Both the position numbers and the translations under genes were made by a program. Positions 49,929 through 64,000 of a DNA stretch of 64,000 nt are shown here, piece after piece (the first letter of the stretch is position 1; each line of letters starts with the position of its first letter). The stretch lies in assembly GCA_024655825.1 (NCBI GenBank), contig JANLFJ010000015.1:1-64000 (forward strand). Direction: 5' to 3'. Origin of the DNA: Peptococcaceae bacterium. GTDB lineage: Bacteria > Bacillota > Peptococcia > DRI-13 > PHAD01. The notes beneath the pieces were generated by a model, which worked only from the letters and a program-made list of their open reading frames with translations, searched no databases and was not told the origin of the DNA.

Positions 49929-50732
49929 GTGAAAAAGAGCCTCAGAACAGCGACGTCGCTTTCGCTTTTGCTCGCGCTTATCCTGTTGAATCTCGTCCTT
50001 TACCGGGGAATACTCCCTGTTTACAAAGACCGGCTGCGCTGGGAATCAACAGGCAAAATCATCTGGAGAGTTCCCGTTGACCAGAAGCTCATCGCGCTCA
50101 CCTTCGACGACGGGCCGAGCCCCACCTTTACGCCGCAGGTCCTCGACGTGCTCAATCAATTCGGGGTCAAGGCCACGTTTTTCGTTGTCGGCAGGCAGGT
50201 GGAAAAGTTCCCGGCAATCCTGGTGAGAGAAGCCAGGGAAGGGCATACCGTCGGCAACCACATGTACACCCACAGCAGGGTAGATAAACTCTCTTTGGAA
50301 GCCTTGATCGACGACCTGCGCCGGGCCGATCAGTTGATTTACAACTTGAGCGGCACGAGGCCTCATTTTTTCCGTCCCCCCGACGGTTATTACGACGAAA
50401 AAATCGTGGCAGCTGCCGAAGCTTTAAACTACCAGGTAGTTATCTGGACCTGGTCGCAGGACACGCGAGACTGGTCAAACATTTCCGCCAGGACCATTTC
50501 CGAGAGGGTCCTCCAAAACGCAAGACCCGGCGATATCATCCTTATGCACGACCAGGGCGGAGACCGGAGCAATACCCTGGAAGCGTTGAAGCTGATCCTG
50601 CCGGGCTTGCTAGAGAAAGGCTACAAGCCTGTGACCTTGGATGAACTGGTTGAGTCCAGAGCCAAAAAACCAGGCAATTCAGTCCAGGACCAGCTTCATG
50701 CACAGGCTCGTCGCCGGGCAGGCGGTACTTAG
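49929..50732 (+). CDS. polysaccharide deacetylase family protein
   Basis: 267 residues. An N-terminal membrane anchor (about 8-25), then the NodB domain: TFDDGPSPTFTPQVLDVL (catalytic Asp pair), GHTVGNHMYTHSRVD (metal His pair), FFRPPDGYYDE, WTWSQDTRDW and PGDIILMHDQGG. It should deacetylate peptidoglycan or a spore-wall glycan outside the membrane. GTG start with GGGGGTGG upstream. Its last 54 bases overlap the convergent arsM-type gene. The 240-base divergent gap to its left shows no clear promoter. Confidence 0.92.
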   Translation: MKKSLRTATSLSLLLALILLNLVLYRGILPVYKDRLRWESTGKIIWRVPVDQKLIALTFDDGPSPTFTPQVLDVLNQFGVKATFFVVGRQVEKFPAILVREAREGHTVGNHMYTHSRVDKLSLEALIDDLRRADQLIYNLSGTRPHFFRPPDGYYDEKIVAAAEALNYQVVIWTWSQDTRDWSNISARTISERVLQNARPGDIILMHDQGGDRSNTLEALKLILPGLLEKGYKPVTLDELVESRAKKPGNSVQDQLHAQARRRAGGT

Positions 50733-51956
50733 GGCCGATCCTTCCAGGAGCTTGGTGGGAGCATCAGCAAGCGTCGTCCCGGCAAAGCCCCATCTTTCCA
50801 TGTACCTGCCGGCCGTGGCAGTAAGCAGGTAGACTTCCCGGCAGCCCGCTTCTTTAGCCTTGCGCAGGGCTTCTTCCACCAAAGCTGCGCCCAGACCTGC
50901 TTTTCGCCATTCTGGCCGGACGGCCAGCGAACGAAGCAGTGCCGCATCCCCGGCGCGCTCCAACCCGATCACGCCGGCGATGCCGGTTATGTCGCCGACC
51001 AGGTAATTCGAGATGTTTTCCCTGTCTATGCCCGCTGCTGTGAGGCCGGCATCCGCCAGCAGGCTGCACACATCATCAAAGTCTTCCCCGCTTGCCGGGC
51101 GGATCAGGTAATCCCTGCCGGCGCAAAGGACCATGGCTGGTTTTTTCGCCTTGACAAACGCGCTGACCACGGTTCCGCTCAGCTCGCTCCAGTCGCCTTT
51201 GTAAAACCGCGCGGCATTCGTCCCGGCCAAATTTCCGGCAAAATCATATTCCCTGGTCACCGTGATTTCAACATCCCTGAAACCGGCCTCCAAAAGATGC
51301 TTTCTGTACTCATCCTCCAGGAGCGCGCCTGCAATGCAGGAGGTCCAGCGCTCCAGGTCCTGCAGCGCTTCGGGCGGCAGCGGCCTTTTGAGGACAATGT
51401 CCGAAACGGCAAACCTGCCGCCGGGCTTGAGGACCCGGAAGGCTTCCCGGATCACCTTGCCCTTGTCGCCCGACAGATTGATCACGCAGTTGGAAATCAC
51501 CACATCGACCGAATTGTCGGGAAGCGGGATTTCTTCAATGTATCCCTGCAAAAACTCCACATTCTTGATTCCTGCTTTTTCCTGGTTTTTTTTGGCTTCT
51601 CTCAGCATTTCCCCGGTCATGTCCAGCCCGTACGCCTTGCCGTAAGGCCCGACGCGCCTGGCCGACAGCAACACGTCCAGCCCGGCGCCGCTGCCCAGGT
51701 CCAGCACGGTCTCGCCGGGATGAAGGTCAGCCAGCATCGCCGGGTTGCCGCAGCCAAACGAAGACTCCAGCAGGCCGGCTGGCAGTCCTTCAATTTCGCC
51801 CTGCCCGTAAATCCCGCCGGTTATGAGGCCGGTTGCCGCCTTATCCCCGTTCCCGCAGCAGCCTCCTTGCGTTTCTCCGCCGCAGCACCCCTTCTTGTCC
51901 ATGATCGCCCGGGCGTACCTTTTTCGCACCGCTTCGCGGATCGTTTCGATTTCCAT
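50679..51956 (-). CDS. arsM: arsenite methyltransferase fused to an ArsN2-like GNAT domain
   Basis: 425 residues. Residues 1-275 are ArsM: a CCGG/GGCCG Cys-rich N-terminus, VLDLGSGAGLDVLLSA for S-adenosylmethionine, and the three arsenic-binding Cys at 69, 157 (ISNCVINLS) and 207 (WTSCIAGAL). Residues 283-425 are a GNAT acetyltransferase (SLAVRPEWRKAGLGAALVEEA) ending in CPATSLCMKL, as in ArsN2 proteins. ArsM methylates As(III); ArsN-type enzymes are linked to arsenical resistance. ATG has AGGAG upstream. It follows a MarR gene by 19 bases. Confidence 0.9.
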   Translation of the reverse strand: MEIETIREAVRKRYARAIMDKKGCCGGETQGGCCGNGDKAATGLITGGIYGQGEIEGLPAGLLESSFGCGNPAMLADLHPGETVLDLGSGAGLDVLLSARRVGPYGKAYGLDMTGEMLREAKKNQEKAGIKNVEFLQGYIEEIPLPDNSVDVVISNCVINLSGDKGKVIREAFRVLKPGGRFAVSDIVLKRPLPPEALQDLERWTSCIAGALLEDEYRKHLLEAGFRDVEITVTREYDFAGNLAGTNAARFYKGDWSELSGTVVSAFVKAKKPAMVLCAGRDYLIRPASGEDFDDVCSLLADAGLTAAGIDRENISNYLVGDITGIAGVIGLERAGDAALLRSLAVRPEWRKAGLGAALVEEALRKAKEAGCREVYLLTATAGRYMERWGFAGTTLADAPTKLLEGSALSTACPATSLCMKLVLD

Positions 51957-51975
51957 ACTCTCATTCTCTCCTTTG

Positions 51976-52419
51976 TTAACAGCATTTCTCGTCTTCCAGG
52001 ACCTTCAGAAGCATTTCCAGGCTCTCTACGACCTGCTGCCTTTTATCTGCCGGTATGGCGCCAAGCACCTTCCCAAAATACGAGTCCATCTTTTCTTCTA
52101 TCGCCCGGCAGGACGCCATGCCTTTCCCCGTTAGCCTGATCGCGACAGAGCGGCGGTTCTCAGGGTTTATCTCCCGTTCGACCAGGCCGCAGCTTGCCAG
52201 ACCCTCGACCGTCCTGCTCGCCGTGCTTTTGTCCAGGTTCAACCTGCCGGCCAGGTCATTAAGCGACAATTCCCCGCTCCTCCCGATCTCAATCAGCGCG
52301 TGGCACTGGGCAAGGGTTATCCCGCAGCAGGACGCTTCCGCTTTCTGCAGGACTCCCGTTCTTCTCACCAGCAGCCGGATCGCCTCCCTCAACCTGCCGG
52401 CCAAACCCGCATCTTCCAC
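51976..52419 (-). CDS. MarR family regulator of the arsM gene
   Basis: 147 residues. Winged HTH: LTLAQCHALIEIGRSGELSL-like, DLAGRLNLDKSTASRTVEGL and the wing VEREINPENRRSVAIRLTGKG. Two adjacent Cys end the protein (DEKCC) and another lies at EASCCG near the N-terminus; these could bind As(III). GTG at 52419 is preferred (AGGAGG eight bases upstream). It leads the marR-arsM operon and faces the acr3 gene across a regulatory region with a palindrome. Confidence 0.87.
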   Translation of the reverse strand: MEDAGLAGRLREAIRLLVRRTGVLQKAEASCCGITLAQCHALIEIGRSGELSLNDLAGRLNLDKSTASRTVEGLASCGLVEREINPENRRSVAIRLTGKGMASCRAIEEKMDSYFGKVLGAIPADKRQQVVESLEMLLKVLEDEKCC

Positions 52420-52455
52420 ACCCGTCACCTCCTGCTTATTATTGTAATATAAAAC

Positions 52456-52472
52456 AGTTGTATTTTACAACT
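52456..52472. promoter_or_regulatory. 17-bp palindromic operator between marR and acr3
   Basis: AGTTGTA-TTT-TACAACT is a perfect 7-3-7 palindrome 37 bases before the MarR start, overlapping its likely promoter (minus strand TTGTAA ... TATATT). It has the size and symmetry of MarR operators. Confidence 0.65.
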
Positions 52473-52538: not shown

Positions 52539-52567
52539 TTGCCTTTCGCTAAAAAAGCACCTATAAT
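52539..52567 (+). promoter_or_regulatory. vegetative promoter of acr3
   Basis: TTGCCT (52539-52544), exactly 17 bases, then a perfect TATAAT (52562-52567). The start of transcription should lie about 85 bases before the acr3 ATG. Confidence 0.65.
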
Positions 52568-52639: not shown

Positions 52640-52660
52640 ATGAGGAGGTTTAAGCGATGA
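52640..52660 (+). other. six-codon mini-cistron overlapping the acr3 start
   Basis: ATG at 52640 with AGGAGG upstream opens a six-codon frame (MRRFKR) whose TGA overlaps the acr3 ATG. The acr3 ribosome site GAGGAGG lies inside it. The layout would allow translational coupling. Confidence 0.5.
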
Positions 52661-53712
52661 ATGAACAGGTTGCTAAAAAGCTGTCATTTTTGGACCGCTA
52701 TCTGACCTTGTGGATATTCCTGGCTATGGCCGTAGGGCTTGGGGCGGGATATGCGTTCCCCAAAATGGCCGATTTTTGGGGGAAATTCCAGGTGGGAACC
52801 ACCAACTTGGCCATCGCGATAGGACTTATTCTAATGATGTACCCTCCCCTGGCCAAAGTGCGCTACGAAGAGCTGCCGACCGTCTTTCAAGACAAAAAGC
52901 TGCTCACCCTGTCATTGATTCAAAACTGGGTGGTCGGTCCCGTGGTGATGTTTATCCTGGCTGTTTTGCTGTTGCCTGACAAACCAGAGCTAATGACCGG
53001 CGTTATCCTGGTGGGGCTTGCCCGCTGCATCGCCATGGTGCTGGTGTGGAACGACCTGGCCGGCGGCCACCCGGAATACGTGGCTGGTCTGGTGGCCTTC
53101 AACGCCATATTTCAGGTGCTCACCTATTCCATATACGCCTATATCTTTTTAACGGTCATCCCGGCCTGGCTGGGTCTTTCCAGCGTGGTAGTCGATGTTT
53201 CCATGGGTGAAATCGCCAAGAGCGTGTTTATTTACCTGGGTATTCCCTTTCTGGCCGGCTACATAAGCCGTTCCGTGCTGGTCAAGTCCAGGGGCCGGGA
53301 CTGGTATGAGCAAAACTATATACCGCGCGTCAGCCGTTTAACCCTGATCGCGCTGCTGTTTACTATTTTTGTCATGTTCTCCTTGAAGGGTGAAGTGATA
53401 ATTACGCTGCCCCTGGACGTCATCAGGGTCGTGATCCCCCTGACCTTATACTTTGTGTTCATGTGGCTGGTTACCTTCTTTATCGGCAAGTGGATCGGCG
53501 CAGATTATCCCAGGACGACCACCATCGCTTTCACTGCCGCCAGCAACGATTTCGAGCTGGCCATCGCCGTGGCGGTGGCGGTATTCGGCATCCACTCGGC
53601 CCAGGCCTTCGCCACCGTGATCGGCCCGCTGGTGGAGGTGCCGGTGTTGATAAGCCTGGTCAACGTGGCGCTGTATTTCCGGCGCAAATACTTCCGCCAT
53701 GAACTGCCGTGA
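52657..53712 (+). CDS. acr3: ACR3-family arsenite efflux permease
   Basis: 351 residues with ten membrane helices. [18 protein letters not shown] holds the essential membrane Cys, and [19 protein letters not shown] the conserved Glu of helix 9. The start [24 protein letters not shown] is typical. It exports As(III)-thiolate or arsenite using the proton gradient. It is preceded by a good promoter and a divergent marR-arsM unit, so it probably belongs to the same arsenic response. Confidence 0.96.
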
Positions 53713-53811: not shown

Positions 53812-54984
53812 TCAAACCATGTTGCCGAAAACAAGCCCGGTGAGGGTGGCCATGACAATAACCAGGAGAACATAAGTCACGGTTTTCTTTGTTCCCATAA
53901 TGCTGCGGATGACCAGCATGTTGGGCAGGCTTAAAGCCGGGCCGGCCAACAACAGCGCCAGGACCGGACCTTTGCCCATGCCGGCTCCCATCAAACCCTG
54001 GATAATGGGCACTTCGGTCAGGGTGGCAAAATACATGAAGGCTCCCACGACGGAGGCAATAAGGTTGGCTCCCAACGAATTGCCGCCTACCAGGGCTGAA
54101 ATCCACCTTGAGGGAATGATTCCGCCATCAGTGCCCGGGCGTCCCATCAGAAAACCGGCCACCAGTACTCCGCCCAGGAGAAGAGGCAAAATCTTTTTGG
54201 CAAAATCCCAGGAAGAATCAACCCATTGAGTGAGTTCTTCCTTGTCGAACCAGCGCATCAGGATATAAGCCAGTATGGCCAGCAAGACAAATGTTATCGG
54301 CCAGTGGATTTTATAGACGAAGTGCCAGAATCCTTCCTGAGACTGGGGTTTGGCCCAGGCGGCAAAAATCAGGATAAAAACGAGATTGGCAAAGTATAAA
54401 AGGTTTTGCCACCCCTTTCTTCTTTCTTCACCCCCGTTATCGCCAAGGTCAAGACCTTCCCTGCCGGCATCTTCCTTGCCGTAAAGCAGGGCCATGATTA
54501 ATCCGATTATTACTGCGAACAGCACTGCTCCCACTGCACGCGCCACACCCAGTTCCCAGCCCAGGACCCGGGCGGTGAGGATGATGGCCAGCACGTTAAT
54601 AGCCGGGCCGGAATAAAGGAAGGCCACAGCGGGACCAATTCCGGCGCCCCTTGTATATATCCCGGCAAACAGAGGCAAAACCGTGCAGGAGCATACTGCC
54701 AGCACGGCTCCCGAGACTGACGCCACCGAGTAGGAAAGCCATTTCTTGGCCCCGGAGCCGAAATACTTCAGGACCGCATTTTGGGAGACAAAGATGGCAA
54801 TCGCGCCGGCGATAAAGAAAGCGGGAACAAGACAAAAAAGCACATGTTCCCGGGCGTACTCATTCAACATTTTAAACGCTTCCAGGGTGGCCGCCGCCAC
54901 GGCAGAGTTATTGAAGGGCATCAGGTAGGCGACCAGAAAAACCCCCAGGTAAAGCATGAATTTTTGCCATTCTTTCATTTTCAT
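53812..54984 (-). CDS. UPF0718/ArsP-type permease
   Basis: 390 residues, about ten membrane helices in two related halves. VCSCTVLPLFAGIYTRGAGIG and AFLYSGPAINVLAIILT in the first half, and TEVPIIQGLMGAGMGKGPVL and AGPALSLPNMLVIRS in the second, match the DUF318/ArsP family, whose ArsP member exports trivalent methylated arsenicals. The CSC pair could bind arsenic. Together with the adjacent arsM this suggests methylarsenite efflux, but the family has other members, so this is inference. It is 57 bases upstream of nothing but follows the mini-thioredoxin gene on the same strand. Confidence 0.82.
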   Translation of the reverse strand: MKMKEWQKFMLYLGVFLVAYLMPFNNSAVAAATLEAFKMLNEYAREHVLFCLVPAFFIAGAIAIFVSQNAVLKYFGSGAKKWLSYSVASVSGAVLAVCSCTVLPLFAGIYTRGAGIGPAVAFLYSGPAINVLAIILTARVLGWELGVARAVGAVLFAVIIGLIMALLYGKEDAGREGLDLGDNGGEERRKGWQNLLYFANLVFILIFAAWAKPQSQEGFWHFVYKIHWPITFVLLAILAYILMRWFDKEELTQWVDSSWDFAKKILPLLLGGVLVAGFLMGRPGTDGGIIPSRWISALVGGNSLGANLIASVVGAFMYFATLTEVPIIQGLMGAGMGKGPVLALLLAGPALSLPNMLVIRSIMGTKKTVTYVLLVIVMATLTGLVFGNMV

Positions 54985-55041
54985 ATTACCTCTGAATAAT
55001 CATATTTAAATAATTTTATTTGAACTCCCTAAAAATGTCCC

Positions 55042-55299
55042 TCAGAATACCTGTTTATAAGGAAGAGACGCCTTGATGATCTTGGTTGTCTCTTCCTTGG
55101 AGGGCACTTTCCCGGAAAGTTTCACTTTCCCGTCGATAATCAGACCGGGGGTCATTAAGATGCTGGTTTTGGCGATTTCTTTGAGGTCGGAAATCTTTCC
55201 TATTTGAGCGTCCACGTTTAATTCCTGCACTGCTTCGCGGACAACTTCCTCGAGCTTTTTGCATTTTGCGCACCCTGTGCCGACAATTTTAATATCCAC
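55042..55299 (-). CDS. redox-active mini-thioredoxin with CxxC
   Basis: 85 residues. MDIKIVGTGCAKCKKLEEV carries the active-site CAKC, and LMTPGLIIDGKVKLSGKVPS the cis-Pro loop. It belongs to the small thioredoxin-like proteins often encoded beside UPF0718 permeases. It would reduce the permease, an arsenic-binding partner or a disulphide. GTG start with GGAGG upstream. It is transcribed directly before the permease gene (57-base gap). The 23801-24040 paralogue lacks the CxxC. Confidence 0.85.
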   Translation of the reverse strand: MDIKIVGTGCAKCKKLEEVVREAVQELNVDAQIGKISDLKEIAKTSILMTPGLIIDGKVKLSGKVPSKEETTKIIKASLPYKQVF

Positions 55300-55480
55300 G
55301 ATTGCACCTCCATGAGTTTATTTTAATAAATGCTGATTTTATTTAAAGGAATAGTCAATAACCGGGTACCAGTTTTTCGCCATTTTTTCATCTCTCCTCG
55401 ATTTATATAAATATATTTTTATATGATTATATTACTTAATCGGTCGGCGGATTGCAAACACTTTCAGGGAGGCAAAATGA

Positions 55481-55700: not shown

Positions 55701-55889
55701 TCATCTGTCTATTTTAATTTCTCCGCCGTTTAATGCAATATAACCTTTAAGATATTTTTCAGCGCTCTGCTGGCAGTGATAGCAGATAATTTCCACAGGA
55801 ACAGGCCTCATACCCTGAAGGTAAACAGCCGATTGAAGGTCTTGGGCGGCATAGAGAAACCATTCCCTGGCGATTTCCCTATTGTTCAT
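55701..55889 (-). pseudogene. HEPN-domain protein, truncated after 62 residues
   Basis: AREWFLYAAQDLQSAVYLQGM and IICYHCQQSAEKYLKGYIAL are the first two helices of a HEPN toxin/RNase domain, which is normally 120-135 residues and ends with an R-x4-6-H RNase motif. The frame stops at 55701 shortly after GGEIKIDR, so the catalytic C-terminal half is missing. It overlaps the MNT gene by 11 bases, the usual HEPN/MNT arrangement. A nonsense or deletion event is likely. Confidence 0.8.
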
Positions 55890-56208
55890 AAATAATAATC
55901 CCTTCGTTCATAATCTTGTGCTCCAAAGTAGTTGAAAGACGCGCCCGTTCCTCAAATTCTTCATTTCTATAGACTAAAAGGTCTACAGGCAGCGAAACAA
56001 TATATGCCAAAGCCCGCCTTGCCTGTCTTAAAACCTCTATCTTTCTTTTGCTGCTATCATCAGTAATAATGCAAAGATCGATATCGCTTCCCTGATCTGG
56101 TTGACCATAAGCATAAGAACCAAACAGGTATATTTTCTTCGGGCTGAGGTTTTTCTGGAGAGCATCCACAACTCTGTTCAATTCTATGTAGTTTGTTATT
56201 TGTTCCAT
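55879..56208 (-). CDS. MNT-type nucleotidyltransferase antitoxin
   Basis: 109 residues. IYLFGSYAYGQPDQGSDIDLCI is the nucleotidyltransferase motif GSxxxG...DxD. MNT antitoxins adenylylate their HEPN partner (HepT/MntA systems). ATG at 56208 chosen; GTG GTG codons three and two codons earlier are alternatives. Because its toxin partner is truncated, the pair is probably no longer an active toxin-antitoxin system. Confidence 0.88.
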   Translation of the reverse strand: MEQITNYIELNRVVDALQKNLSPKKIYLFGSYAYGQPDQGSDIDLCIITDDSSKRKIEVLRQARRALAYIVSLPVDLLVYRNEEFEERARLSTTLEHKIMNEGIIIYEQ

Positions 56209-56337
56209 ATGCACCACCCGGTTATATTATACTATTTATTGGTTCTATAATCATGATCTGACTATATTTTCCCCCCATATTTTTATACTCTAGACTCTAG
56301 AACATCTAACATTCCGAGAATTATGCTTGCCTGAGCT

Positions 56338-57557: not shown

Positions 57558-57905
57558 ATGGCCGACAAGTATTCAAGGGCCGCCGAGCGCCTGAAAGCGG
57601 TCGCCGAACCCACGCGTCTCAAAATTGTGGAGATGCTCGCCGCGGAAGAAATGTGCGTGTGCGAAATAATCGACAGGCTGAGTCTCAGCCAGCCAGCCGT
57701 ATCGCATCACCTCAAAACGCTGCGCCAGGCCGGTATCATTTCCGACCGAAAAGAGGGCAAATGGGTGTTTTATTCGCTCAACAAGGGCGAGTTCTGCAAC
57801 CTGCTGCAGGACTTGCAGGCCGGGATTTCCCCGGATTACCCGGTTGCGGAAAAGCACGAGCCGACCATCCTCTGTCCGCTGGACAGCGATGCCCAAAACT
57901 GCTGA
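57558..57905 (+). CDS. ArsR/SmtB family metalloregulator
   Basis: 115 residues. EEMCVCEIIDRLSLSQPAVSHHLKTLR contains the metal-binding CVC motif of As/Cd-type ArsR proteins and the recognition helix. GKWVFYSLNKGE is the wing. It binds DNA in the absence of metal and leaves when a thiophilic metal binds. ATG with AAGGAGG upstream. It faces the half-permease genes divergently and is probably their repressor. Confidence 0.93.
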   Translation: MADKYSRAAERLKAVAEPTRLKIVEMLAAEEMCVCEIIDRLSLSQPAVSHHLKTLRQAGIISDRKEGKWVFYSLNKGEFCNLLQDLQAGISPDYPVAEKHEPTILCPLDSDAQNC

Positions 57906-61717: not shown

Positions 61718-63697
61718 TTATGCTGTTTTCAGGGACCGCAAGGCGTTCAGCACCGCTGCCAGGGCTACGCCCGTGTCGGCGAACACCGCTCCCCACATGG
61801 TGGCGAACCCGCAGGCGCTCAACAGCAGCACCGCCCCTTTAACCCCCAGCGCCAGGAAAATGTTCTGCCACACGATTTTTTTCGTTTTACGGGCAATCCT
61901 CATCGCGGTCACAAGCCTGGACGGCTCGCCCGTCATCAACACCACATCGGCAGCCTCGATGGCGGCATCGGCTCCCAGCCCGCCCATTGCCACGCCTACA
62001 TCGGCTCTGGCCAGCACCGGGGCGTCATTTAGCCCGTCGCCCACAAAAACAAGGCTGCCTTTGCCTTTGGTTTGGCACAGCCGCTCCATTCTTTCGACTT
62101 TTTCATGCGGGAGCAGCTCGCCGCACGCTTCGTCAAGCCCCAGCTCCCTGGCGACCTGGGCAGCGGCATCCCGCCTGTCGCCGCTCAACAGGCACACCCG
62201 TTTTACTCCCAGGCTTTTCAGCCCCTGGACTGCGTCACGGCTGTCCTCTTTCAGCTCGTCGACAATGAGGACGGACCCCCATAATTTCCCGTCAACGGCA
62301 AGATAAACCGTGGTCCCGTCCTCTTCTTCGCTCCGGATTTCAATGCCGGCATTCTCCATCAACCGGCGGTTCCCCGCCAGGATGGTTTTCCCGCCCGCTG
62401 TCGCCTTAACTCCGCCCCCCGCTACTTCTTCAAAGCTCTCGATCCTTTCCTTATCGACCGTGCCTCCGTAGTATTCCTCAATTGACCTGGCGATCGGGTG
62501 GTTGGAATAATATTCGGCCAAAGCCGCCTCCTCCAGAAACTCTTCCCGGCTGAGACCGTCCTTTGGCCTGACCGAAGCGACGCGAAAGACCCCCTTGGTC
62601 AGCGTGCCCGTCTTGTCAAAGACCACAGTGTCAACGCTGCTGAGCGCCTCCAGGAAATTCCCTCCTTTTACCAGGATACCGTTCCTGGAAGCGCCTCCAA
62701 TGCCGCCGAAAAAGCTCAGGGGAATGGAAATCACCAGGGCGCACGGGCAAGAGACGACCAAAAAAACAAGGGCGCGGTACAGCCAATCCGAATAGCCGCC
62801 TCCAGCAGCCAAGGGCGGGACAAGGGCCAGAGCGGCGGCGCAGCCTACCACCGCCGGCGTGTAATACCTGGAAAACCTGGTAAAGAATTTCTCCGCCGGC
62901 GCCTTTTGGCCGGCGGCGTTTTGAACCAGCTCCAGTATCCGTGCCGCCGTGGATTGGCCGTATTCTCTTGTCACCTCCAGGCTTATCAGGCCGGTGGTGT
63001 TAACAAACCCGGCCAGCACCTCGTCCCCGGGCTTCACTCCCCGCGGCACCGCCTCGCCGGTCAGCGCGGAAGTGTCGACAAAGGAGGAACCGTCCAGCAC
63101 GACGCCATCAAGCGGCACCCGTTCGCCGGGCTTTACGAGTATGACCTCGCCCGCTCTCACCTCATTTGGAGATACGGTTAAAACCGCATCTCCCTGTTTG
63201 AGGTTTGCGTAATCCGGCCTGATTTTCAGCAGTTCCCGGATCGAGCGGCGCGAGCGGTCAACCGCCGCCTCCTGGAAACTCTCGCCCACCTGGTAGAACA
63301 GCATCACCGCCACCGCTTCGGAAAACTCGCCGATGGCAAAGGCCCCGACGGTCGCCGTCGTCATCAGGAAGTTTTCGTCAAACACCCGCCCTCGCCGGAT
63401 GTTTTCGAGGGCCTTCAGGATCACCTCTCCCCCGATCAGTAGATAGCTCAAAAGGTACAGGAGCAGTTCAACCGAAATTCCCGGCTTCATTAACAAGGCT
63501 GCCAGGCAAAGAAACACCCCGGCAGCCAGCCGCGCCAGCCTGGTCCTCCGCTCTTCCCTTCCAGAAGCGGCTGTTTCCAGGCTCTCCATTTCTTCCGTTT
63601 TTTCCTTTGTTCCCGCTACGGATCCTCTTGAAGAGGCGTCGCTCCCCGCCGGTCCTTTCCCGGCAATCCCGGCCTGAATATGCGGCATGTGTTTCAT
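61718..63697 (-). CDS. heavy-metal P1B-type ATPase (Cd/Zn/Pb type)
   Basis: 659 residues. The transmembrane metal site is VSCPCALVISIPLSFFGG (CPC), the phosphorylation site VVFDKTGTLTKG, the hinge VFVGDGLNDAPVLARADVGVAMGG. An N-terminal HMA domain is absent; the first 60 residues are charged. The Pro-rich loop and SIPLSF after CPC fit CadA/ZntA-type exporters of Cd2+, Zn2+ or Pb2+. ATG with AAAGGGG upstream. It follows the CadC-like regulator by 21 bases. Confidence 0.93.
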   Translation of the reverse strand: MKHMPHIQAGIAGKGPAGSDASSRGSVAGTKEKTEEMESLETAASGREERRTRLARLAAGVFLCLAALLMKPGISVELLLYLLSYLLIGGEVILKALENIRRGRVFDENFLMTTATVGAFAIGEFSEAVAVMLFYQVGESFQEAAVDRSRRSIRELLKIRPDYANLKQGDAVLTVSPNEVRAGEVILVKPGERVPLDGVVLDGSSFVDTSALTGEAVPRGVKPGDEVLAGFVNTTGLISLEVTREYGQSTAARILELVQNAAGQKAPAEKFFTRFSRYYTPAVVGCAAALALVPPLAAGGGYSDWLYRALVFLVVSCPCALVISIPLSFFGGIGGASRNGILVKGGNFLEALSSVDTVVFDKTGTLTKGVFRVASVRPKDGLSREEFLEEAALAEYYSNHPIARSIEEYYGGTVDKERIESFEEVAGGGVKATAGGKTILAGNRRLMENAGIEIRSEEEDGTTVYLAVDGKLWGSVLIVDELKEDSRDAVQGLKSLGVKRVCLLSGDRRDAAAQVARELGLDEACGELLPHEKVERMERLCQTKGKGSLVFVGDGLNDAPVLARADVGVAMGGLGADAAIEAADVVLMTGEPSRLVTAMRIARKTKKIVWQNIFLALGVKGAVLLLSACGFATMWGAVFADTGVALAAVLNALRSLKTA

Positions 63698-63718: not shown

Positions 63719-64000
63719 CTATTGATGCCTGACATGAGCCAGTCCCTGGGAAAACAGGTTTATGATGTGTTCATCATCCAGGGAATAATAGACCTTCTTC
63801 CCTTCCTTCCTGTTCTTGACAAGCCGCAGGTTTCGCAAAACCCTCAACTGGTGGGAAACCGCCGGCTGCGACATTCCCAGCGCTTCTTCCAGGTCGCAGA
63901 CGCACAACTCTCCCTGGGCGAGAGCATGGAGGATTCTTATGCGGGTTGCATCGCCCATCGCCTTAAAGATCTCGGACACCCCCGACACCTCGTCCGGCTT
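63719..64000 (-). CDS. ArsR/CadC family metalloregulator, N-terminus beyond window
   Basis: The visible 93 codons include VSEIFKAMGDATRIRILHAL, the ELCVCDLEEALGMSQPAVSHQL helix with the CVC metal motif, and the YYSLDDEHIINLFSQGLAHV wing and dimer helix. GTG codons at 63988 and 63979 are possible starts, but the frame is open to the window end (KPDE before the first GTG) and CadC-like proteins usually have 20-30 more residues, so the true start is probably outside. It should repress the adjacent P-ATPase gene until Cd, Zn or Pb is present. Confidence 0.9.
   Translation of the reverse strand, partial: KPDEVSGVSEIFKAMGDATRIRILHALAQGELCVCDLEEALGMSQPAVSHQLRVLRNLRLVKNRKEGKKVYYSLDDEHIINLFSQGLAHVRHQ

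Follow-up and report, generated by a model that had tools for sequence, protein, structure and literature searches.

What controls arsenic methylation at this locus, and can a regulator of the MarR fold sense arsenic? Arsenic sensing in ars operons is described mainly as the work of ArsR in the available part of a published account (PMC11868830). We analysed a stretch of 64,000 nucleotides from a Peptococcaceae bacterium, called the window here, in which a MarR gene lies 19 bp upstream of a gene joining an arsenite methyltransferase to a GNAT domain. A reading of this DNA from the sequence alone had taken this combination, together with the Cys pairs of the MarR and a palindrome at its promoter, to suggest an arsenic-sensing MarR type. 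The features of the regulator and its promoter are as follows.

51976..52428, minus strand: MarR-family regulator with Cys pairs, 150 aa (PF01047)
52324..52329, minus strand: codons of Cys34-Cys35, between helix 1 and helix 2 (sequence)
52303..52305, minus strand: codon of Cys42, in helix 2, which spans residues 39-51 in the model (sequence and model)
51979..51984, minus strand: codons of Cys149-Cys150, at the C-terminus behind the last helix (sequence)
52456..52472, no strand: palindrome AGTTGTA-TTT-TACAACT, candidate operator (exact; core conserved in homologues)
52441..52470, minus strand: promoter, with -35 TTGTAA at 52470-52465, an 18-nt spacer and -10 TACAAT at 52446-52441

The regulator and its cysteines

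The regulator is a MarR and not an ArsR protein, as the sequence-only reading had held. Its winged-helix domain scores 54.0 bits against PF01047 (cut-off 24.6), and its score of 22.2 bits stays below the ArsR/SmtB cut-off of 55 (NF033788). The predicted structure has a mean pLDDT of 89.7 and its fold matches are MarR proteins. The AdcR/ZitR model NF038251 gave no match to the window protein at E <= 0.001, and the relative L041 reaches 26.9 bits there against a cut-off of 175. Translation probably begins at an in-frame GTG at position 52419, giving 147 aa, since the Shine-Dalgarno sequence AGGAGG and the annotated start GTG at 52428 overlap. The cysteine pairs had been placed at both ends of the protein; this holds for residues 149-150, while the pair at 34-35 lies between helix 1 and helix 2.

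We collected two sets of homologues. The unselected set has 52 members with the window left out, 51 from a whole-protein search of 398 genomes of the phylum and one from a search of the order. The non-redundant set has 104 rows at identity below 85% and includes 56 rows from named genomes; over their last 120 residues these match none of the unselected proteins exactly. Some genomes of the unselected set recur among the named loci, e.g. L103 and L040. The controls are 30 MarR proteins, namely the best-scoring Pfam loci of 61 genomes of the phylum and not a random draw. The genome scan used the closer rows; alignment A1 was too diverse. A search of a viral collection found no relative.

The cysteines are widely conserved in the homologues. 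In the unselected set the N-terminal CC is found in 50 of the 52 proteins, a counterpart of Cys42 in 43 and a CC within the last 30 residues in 45, while none of the 30 control MarRs has a CC anywhere (in the named set, the search pattern itself biases the count of N-terminal CC pairs). The C-terminal pair is absent in seven of the 52, among them four of the five MarRs linked to a fusion (L068, L072, L075 and L084), as well as in four of the six non-redundant rows linked to arsN1, so that it cannot be essential everywhere. Two arsP-linked members, L080 and L085, are without the N-terminal CC. Members of the putative sensor family would share a Cys pair between helices 1 and 2 and a single Cys in helix 2, and would usually have another Cys pair at the C-terminus.

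The operator and its conservation

The perfect 7-3-7 palindrome claimed at the promoter is present exactly at 52456-52472, and the -35 element of the MarR promoter sits inside it. Matching the pattern AGTTGYANNNTRCAACT against the 3.16-Mb genome gave this site as the sole perfect match. Weak matches carry no meaning, since at two or fewer mismatches the genome has 11 forward sites against 9 for the reversed control pattern and 0.92 matches with up to three mismatches are expected by chance in the window; a genome-wide regulon built on such matches was rejected. The evidence for the candidate operator is its conservation at the same promoter in the relatives.

The core TTGYA-N3-TRCAA is perfect upstream of 68 of the 104 non-redundant homologues (0.32 in shuffles) and has at most one mismatch upstream of 92 (6.1 in shuffles). 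Among the control MarRs the corresponding counts are 0/28 and 1/28. The named set, from which the pattern was not derived, gives 36 perfect sites and 52 with at most one mismatch among 56 rows. The conservation varies with the linked gene: 45/54 perfect and 53/54 with at most one mismatch for rows linked to plain arsM, weaker values of 6/16 and 14/16 for rows linked to hgcA, and 1/6 and 2/6 for the fusion-linked non-redundant rows. When 67 homologous promoters are aligned, 42 share a -10-like hexamer (at least 5/6 identical to TATAAT) at the same offset, which makes TTGYAN the -35 element.

In one genome (G061) the MarR gene and arsM are 157 kb apart, and a perfect core operator stands before each. 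Of 38 ArsM genes located away from such a MarR, this arsM alone has a perfect site. With one mismatch allowed, the 17-bp pattern finds two sites in this genome and the control pattern also two, so only their location is informative.

The window carries further arsenic-related genes next to the MarR gene:

52657..53712, plus strand: ACR3 arsenite efflux transporter, divergent neighbour (TIGR00832, 445.9 bits, cut-off 282.8)
52539-52567: promoter-like site of the ACR3 gene itself
53812..54984, minus strand: ArsP_1-type permease, neighbour (PF03773, 263 bits)

Control of ACR3 by the same operator was considered and rejected. Among 23 ACR3 genes located away from this MarR family none has a perfect site and one has a site with one mismatch, so the regulon looks narrow. 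Shared control of marR and ACR3 through the single divergent operator is possible in the window.

Gene partners and exchange with ArsR

The homologues are linked to arsenic methylation. An ArsM gene lies downstream within 1.5 kb in 32 of the 52 homologues and in none of the 30 controls (Fisher p 2.5e-9). In the non-redundant set, 60 of the 104 rows have a downstream ArsM, 54 of them plain arsM and six fusions; the other partners are hgcA (16), arsN1 (6), arsP (3) and arsA (1). Culturable hosts with the MarR-arsM module include Clostridium carboxidivorans P7 (L118) and Thermosediminibacter litoriperuensis (L125). No recognised gene was found downstream in 14 rows, and at least three of these are counting artefacts, i.e. 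a contig end in L040, an HgcA just past the distance limit in L162 and an ArsM that is present in L167. Ten other downstream neighbours were compared with NCBIfam and gave five HgcA, two ArsN1-type proteins, one methyltransferase, one ArsA-like ATPase and one DF-family protein. All five HgcA proteins tested score 423-476 bits against NF040863 (cut-off 275). The motif NVWCAAGK, which we take to be a mark of HgcA, occurs in 21 of 21 HgcA ORFs, two of these being the same gene.

Regulators of this MarR family and ArsR interchange upstream of arsM. With the window left out, 67 ArsM matches of at least 188 bits were found in the phylum sample, with a MarR of this family upstream in 28, ArsR in 18, neither in 19 and 2 not retrieved. 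The ArsM tree requires at least 11 changes between the two regulators and places the window ArsM nearest to ArsR-linked ArsMs; both of our trees are quick ones, with 38/104 unsupported forks in the ArsM tree and 46/102 in the other.

The ArsM-GNAT fusion

50679..51956, minus strand: ArsM-GNAT (ArsN2-like) fusion, 425 aa (ORF and profile matches)
51135..51950, minus strand: arsenite methyltransferase domain, residues 3-274 (phmmer alignment to 4kw7/4fr0)
50694..51077, minus strand: GNAT domain, ArsN2-like, residues 294-421 (NF040501, PF00583)

Methyltransferase and GNAT domains are indeed joined in one protein of 425 residues, as had been claimed. The ArsM part exceeds the cut-off of NF008823 (325.6 bits against 263, residues 3-274) and the GNAT part that of PF00583 (39.9 bits against 20.7, residues 326-391). 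Residues 294-421 score 108 bits against the ArsN2 model NF040501, short of the cut-off of 125, and we hence name the domain ArsN2-like; two other ArsM-GNAT fusions score 130-131 bits. In the phmmer alignment to 4kw7 and 4fr0, Cys69, Cys157 and Cys207 align with the catalytic cysteines of the solved arsenic methyltransferases. All three are invariant in ten of ten aligned fusions, and so is C413 of the GNAT domain.

The fusion is rare. The search in other genomes that had been proposed along with it found at least 8 cases in the 398 genomes of the phylum (G000, which is the window, G143, G389, G299, G112, G147, G073 and G401), and two more, L122 and L134, in named genomes outside this count. 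Among the seven fusions in retrieved phylum loci, with the window left out, two (L183 and L184) stand under ArsR. On the ArsM tree, where support near the window is weak, the fusion state changes five times. The fusion was considered as the main novelty and rejected, as it is found under MarR or ArsR and changes repeatedly on the tree. The proposal of an arsenic-sensing MarR type gains from the conserved Cys pairs, the promoter-overlapping operator, the linkage to arsM, arsN1, arsP and hgcA, the exchange with ArsR and the unlinked arsM with its operator. The fusion combination itself is not the clue to it, since plain arsM genes outnumber fusions 54 to 6 in the 104 rows and two of the seven fusions are under ArsR.

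Proposed mechanism and alternatives

We consider it rather likely that the MarR protein represses its own operon, marR-arsM(N2), and is released by a thiophilic arsenical. From the family assignment, the cysteine conservation, the operator, its overlap with the promoter and the gene linkage, all seen in the sequences, we infer the repression, the inducer, the binding cysteines and the GNAT substrate as follows. A MarR dimer would bind the 17-bp palindrome and cover the -35 element at the promoter of its own gene. The inducer would be a thiophilic arsenical, with As(III) and the more toxic MAs(III) as the most likely candidates; bound to a soft site formed by Cys34/Cys35, Cys42 and/or the C-terminal Cys149/Cys150, it would loosen the grip of the protein on DNA and turn arsM on. 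The fusion product would then methylate As(III) through its three canonical cysteines, and the attached GNAT domain would probably acetylate an amino-containing arsenical or another amine tied to detoxification. Plain arsM, arsN1 and hgcA would be controlled in the same way by other members of the family.

The cysteines might instead make the protein a sensor of soft metals in general, or Hg(II), Sb(III) or Bi(III) might be the true inducer in place of arsenic, with the hgcA-linked members sensing mercury. The 16 of 104 members that precede hgcA, 14 of which have the operator with at most one mismatch, fit this idea, and a remote MarR of Clostridioides difficile was solved with Hg bound according to the title of its entry (8xt8), where the Hg may be for phasing. 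However, the members preceding arsM are almost four times as many (60/104) and others precede arsN1, and a Pseudodesulfovibrio ArsR-like regulator of hgcAB responds to arsenic as reported in the accessible part of PMC10349881, so we regard a broad or different metal specificity as unlikely. The PDB codes 8xt7 (an arsenite methyltransferase) and 8xt8 are neighbours, and none of the papers listed for these codes was relevant; a related MarR may have been studied before.

A thiol redox, electrophile or sulfide switch of the OhrR, SarZ or AbfR type, in which oxidation or persulfidation of the cysteines releases the DNA and arsM belongs to a general stress response, strikes us as quite unlikely. 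OhrR and SarZ are cysteine-based MarR switches, the fold matches include the disulfide form of AbfR (5hli) as well as SarZ (4gxo), and Cys pairs can form disulfides; the L088 neighbour also resembles an FAD oxidoreductase by eye. But arsenic and mercury genes make up most of the recognised neighbours (60 ArsM, 16 HgcA, 6 ArsN1, 3 ArsP and 1 ArsA of 104), the ten neighbours run against NCBIfam include no peroxide or thiol-stress gene, and the MarR swaps with ArsR in the same slot. It would be more surprising still, and seems to us highly improbable, if the cysteines held structural zinc or formed another fixed site and the inducer were an organic ligand as in many MarRs. Organic-ligand MarRs are frequent among the fold matches, where the zinc-binding ZitR and AdcR also appear, but the partner genes that were recognised relate to arsenic and mercury, and a structural site would not be expected to vary as the C-terminal CC does.

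Comparison with known systems

The arsenical-responsive autorepressor that we favour differs from the known ars repressors in fold and in the placement of its cysteines. The ArsR/SmtB proteins (R773 ArsR, AfArsR, CgArsR and ArArsR) are small winged-helix ars repressors with variously placed As(III)-binding Cys clusters; the As(III) site of CgArsR consists of the adjacent Cys15-Cys16 and Cys55 of the other subunit, and ArArsR, encoded upstream of arsM, has the adjacent Cys107-Cys108 (PMC11868830). The window protein, in contrast, has the MarR fold, with one cysteine in helix 2, a pair in the stretch that joins helices 1 and 2 and a pair beyond the final helix, and the operator of its family is TTGYA-N3-TRCAA. 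The zinc regulators AdcR and ZitR likewise combine the MarR fold with a metal site, and structure entries exist for the ZitR mutants C30S and E41A. Their metal site involves a Cys near helix 2, and to our knowledge they are without the Cys pairs.

The window fusion shares NF008823 and the three cysteines with ArsM and differs by its C-terminal GNAT domain. ArsN2 is described as a GNAT clade nearer to the N-acetylglutamate synthases in the accessible part of a paper whose subject is ArsN1 (PMC6465285). The window GNAT is of the same kind as ArsN2, but it scores 108 of the 125 bits and is fused to ArsM. In the open-access literature, which mostly excludes subscription papers, the matches listed describe no MarR as an arsenic sensor, no MarR-arsM pair and no ArsM-ArsN2 fusion.

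In Dethiobacter alkaliphilus and Geobacter daltonii, hgcA is reported to be preceded by MarR genes (PMC10349881), and a conserved putative regulator, unnamed, is reported upstream of hgcAB in 112 genomes (PMC7438021). The available portions of both papers state no tie of these regulators to arsM, Cys pairs or an operator.

Implications

Our data suggest that this MarR family is probably an overlooked sensor of arsenic- and mercury-type poisons, because many related bacteria pair the same switch and DNA site with arsenic- or mercury-methylation genes. The chances seem about even for the wider reading that an unnamed MarR-fold family senses thiophilic metals and metalloids, replaces ArsR in several phyla and controls arsM and hgcA through one operator. 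The prediction is sharp, as it concerns one protein, one 17-bp site and a few Cys positions. If true, it would give arsenic sensing a second fold, which would change the understanding of arsenic methylation in anoxic places, and would provide a new sensor part for biosensors. A MarR family upstream of hgcA also makes directly testable the long-standing question of which signal turns on mercury methylation and for what reason bacteria retain it. Should arsM and hgcA share one inducer, mercury methylation would be wired as an arsenic response in these bacteria.

Organization of the operon and its surroundings

The sequence-only reading had described an ArsM-GNAT fusion, a MarR regulator with Cys pairs and a palindrome, and all three were located on the minus strand of the window, in the following order of transcription.

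52456-52472, minus strand, palindrome of 17 bp, first in the unit
51976-52428, minus strand, MarR gene, downstream of the palindrome
50679-51956, minus strand, ArsM + GNAT gene (425 aa), 19 bp past the MarR gene

An ACR3 arsenite exporter is encoded next to this operon in the divergent direction, and after it comes a minus-strand ArsP_1 permease. Two ArsR/SmtB genes with CVC motifs (57558-57905, plus strand, and 63719-64000, minus strand) and a heavy-metal P-type ATPase (61718-63697) adjoining the second of them point to a wider metal-resistance region. Upstream of the ArsP-type permease we read by eye a small thioredoxin-like gene with a CAKC motif (about 55040-55310, minus strand), and an MntA-like antitoxin (55879-56217, minus strand) scores 51 of the 60 bits of its NCBIfam cut-off. 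The 3' ends of the fusion gene and a convergent polysaccharide deacetylase gene overlap by 54 bases (50679-50732). The genome comprises 98 contigs and 3.16 Mb, and the closest MarR relative found, at 62-63% identity, is from a genome of the same order.

Conserved cysteines in the MarR family

The whole-protein search of 398 phylum genomes gave 52 rows in 49 genomes with E <= 1e-15, the window included. The 51 non-window rows and one row from the order search form a set of 52 in whose selection the cysteines played no part. An N-terminal CC is found in 50 of the 52, Cys42 in 43, a C-terminal CC within the last 30 residues in 45, and both pairs together in 43. No CC occurs anywhere in the 30 control MarRs of the phylum (mean 1.9 Cys), which were taken as the top scorers when 61 genomes were searched with Pfam and so are no random draw. 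A pattern scan of named genomes added 80 loci in Bacillota and beyond, the latter being, by their record names, from Deltaproteobacteria, Spirochaetota, Synergistaceae, Acidobacteria, Aminicenantes and Bacteroidales, with many metagenome assemblies. Because the first CC is part of the scan pattern, a fair count in this named set is limited to the C-terminal pair (57/82). This pair is absent from four of the six non-redundant MarRs linked to arsN1.

An AlphaFold model built from a 57-row alignment has a mean pLDDT of 89.7, with lower values near residues 21-40. It places Cys34-35 between helix 1 and helix 2, Cys42 inside helix 2 and Cys149-150 past the final helix. A Cys site across the dimer is a plausible prediction, since the N- and C-terminal parts of both subunits come together in MarR dimers.

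A shared operator at the promoter

The pattern TTGYA-N3-TRCAA was derived from palindromes upstream of the unselected set of 52. We counted it in 104 homologues less than 85% identical, using 230 bases (at least 150) ahead of codon 13. It is perfect in 68 and has at most one mismatch in 92; 100 dinucleotide shuffles gave on average 0.32 perfect sites (largest 3) and 6.1 with at most one mismatch (largest 13). The control MarRs have 0/28 and 1/28, respectively. Perfect sites occur in 36 of the 56 named rows, which were not used for deriving the pattern, in 29/45 rows of the set that was its source, and in all three extra rows from ArsM loci. By partner, perfect sites (and those with at most one mismatch) number 45/54 (53/54) for arsM, 6/16 (14/16) for hgcA, 4/6 (5/6) for arsN1 and 1/6 (2/6) for the fusion. 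The operator is thus clearest with plain arsM, and it has drifted or changed in the fusion-linked loci L068, L075, L077 and L084. These four MarRs, distant from that of the window, keep the N-terminal CC. The shared operator is missing from all of them and the C-terminal CC from three, and they may have come to bind a different DNA site.

The consensus extends to AGTTGYA-WWW-TRCAACTRTT. Of 67 promoters that have a perfect site, 42 show a TATAAT-like hexamer (at least 5/6 matches) starting 24 bases past the start of the site, a fixed offset that makes TTGYAN the -35 element with a spacer of 18 bases. The window promoter reads TTGTAA - 18 - TACAAT. A repressor on the operator should block its own promoter. 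A weaker second copy, with the -10 inside it (TTTTATATTACAAT in the window), lies 16 bases downstream of the first within 52441-52472, and likewise at the relatives L041 and L201; it could be a second binding site or reflect the fixed -10.

Genes probably controlled

The downstream partners of the 104 MarRs are ArsM (54), HgcA (16), ArsM-ArsN2 (6), ArsN1 (6), ArsP (3), a second methyltransferase type (2), ArsR (2), ArsA (1) and none (14). At least three of these last are artefacts of the counting: L040 sits at the end of a contig, in L162 HgcA falls just beyond the limit, and L167 does have ArsM. ArsM lies downstream in 32/52 of the unselected set versus 0/30 controls; HgcA or ArsN1 was found at 0/30 control loci and an ArsP-type permease at 1/30. 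All five HgcA candidates tested passed the HgcA model by far, and NVWCAAGK is present in all 21 HgcA ORFs, two of which are the same gene. MarR relatives stand directly upstream of hgcA at L053, L057, L060, L061, L063, L065, L112, L119, L157, L160, L163, L166, L168-L170, L177, L179 and L182, and ahead of ArsN1-type acetyltransferases at L106, L130-L133, L143, L150 and L153; one of two such acetyltransferases tested passes the arsinothricin-resistance model.

On the MarR tree, a quick tree with 46/102 forks unsupported, the partner changes among ArsM, HgcA and ArsN1 at least 10 times. A single supported clade, with 13 rows, contains ten of the 16 hgcA-linked rows; the other six lie elsewhere, some beside arsM-linked members.

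Exchange with ArsR and possible action in trans

On a quick ArsM tree, the regulator switches between the Cys-pair MarR and ArsR, the usual arsenic repressor, at least 11 times, and the ArsM of the window is closest to ArsR-linked enzymes. Of 67 ArsM matches of at least 188 bits, the window left out, 28 have a Cys-pair MarR upstream and 18 an ArsR; in 19 neither gene lies within 1.4 kb in the same orientation, some of these being at contig ends, and two were not fetched. That the two regulators replace each other in one position speaks for a shared signal.

In genome G061, no arsM lies beside the MarR gene, which has its own perfect core operator. The arsM gene is 157 kb off, and 87 bases ahead of its start stands a perfect core operator, plus the -10-like second copy. 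With one mismatch allowed, the 17-bp pattern has exactly two sites in this genome, the MarR's and the arsM's; a control pattern likewise has two, so the positions and not the number are unusual. Of the 38 ArsM genes that lie away from any such MarR, the one in G061 alone has a perfect site, a single case that supports action of the MarR in trans on arsM.

The fusion enzyme

The ArsM part exceeds its NCBIfam cut-off (325.6 versus 263 bits), and Cys69, Cys157 and Cys207 align with cysteines of solved arsenic methyltransferases. The GNAT part is ArsN2-like but under the ArsN2 cut-off (108 versus 125 bits), whereas two other fusions pass that model (130-131 bits). ArsN2 was named as a second clade of ars-operon acetyltransferases, closer to N-acetylglutamate synthases, with no function assigned in the parts of that account consulted (PMC6465285). 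A search for the fusion in other genomes had been proposed, and it occurs in at least 8 of the 398 sampled; ten fusions can be aligned along both domains. Some fusion genes stand beneath a Cys-pair MarR and others beneath ArsR. The fusion, rare and recurrent, unites two known arsenic gene kinds. Another ArsN2-like fusion, of a GNAT domain with a short-chain dehydrogenase, lies close to hgcA and acr3 (L053, 5994-7244). At L185 (5082-6360), the ArsN2 part behind arsM is broken up over different frames; this locus and the unbroken fusion L183 come from one genus.

Proposed arsenic sensing and known systems

ArsR proteins hold As(III) by three cysteines, a MAs(III)-responsive ArsR needs two, and ArsR types with different Cys sites have already been described (PMC11868830). 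In Pseudodesulfovibrio, hgcAB is under an arsenic-responsive ArsR-like protein, as told in PMC10349881, which also notes MarR genes upstream of hgcA in two species. A conserved putative regulator, left unnamed, precedes hgcAB in 112 genomes (PMC7438021). No description of a MarR as an arsenic sensor was found among the literature matches listed. By fold, the window's MarR resembles PDB 8xt8, a Clostridioides difficile MarR solved with Hg according to its entry title (rmsd 2.1 over 107 residues), a remote likeness at 22% identity and Z 12.3. The adjacent code 8xt7 belongs to an arsenite methyltransferase.

Sequence comparison establishes for this family a MarR fold, conserved cysteines, a conserved operator at the promoter and linkage to arsenic and mercury genes. 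We infer that the protein represses its promoter and is released by arsenic. As for the cysteines involved, a three-Cys As(III) site could be formed by Cys34, Cys35 and Cys42 of a single subunit, and this would account for the possible loss of the C-terminal pair. The comparisons support well the reading as a putative arsenic-sensing MarR, and it is this regulator family, not the ArsM-GNAT fusion, that is the finding.
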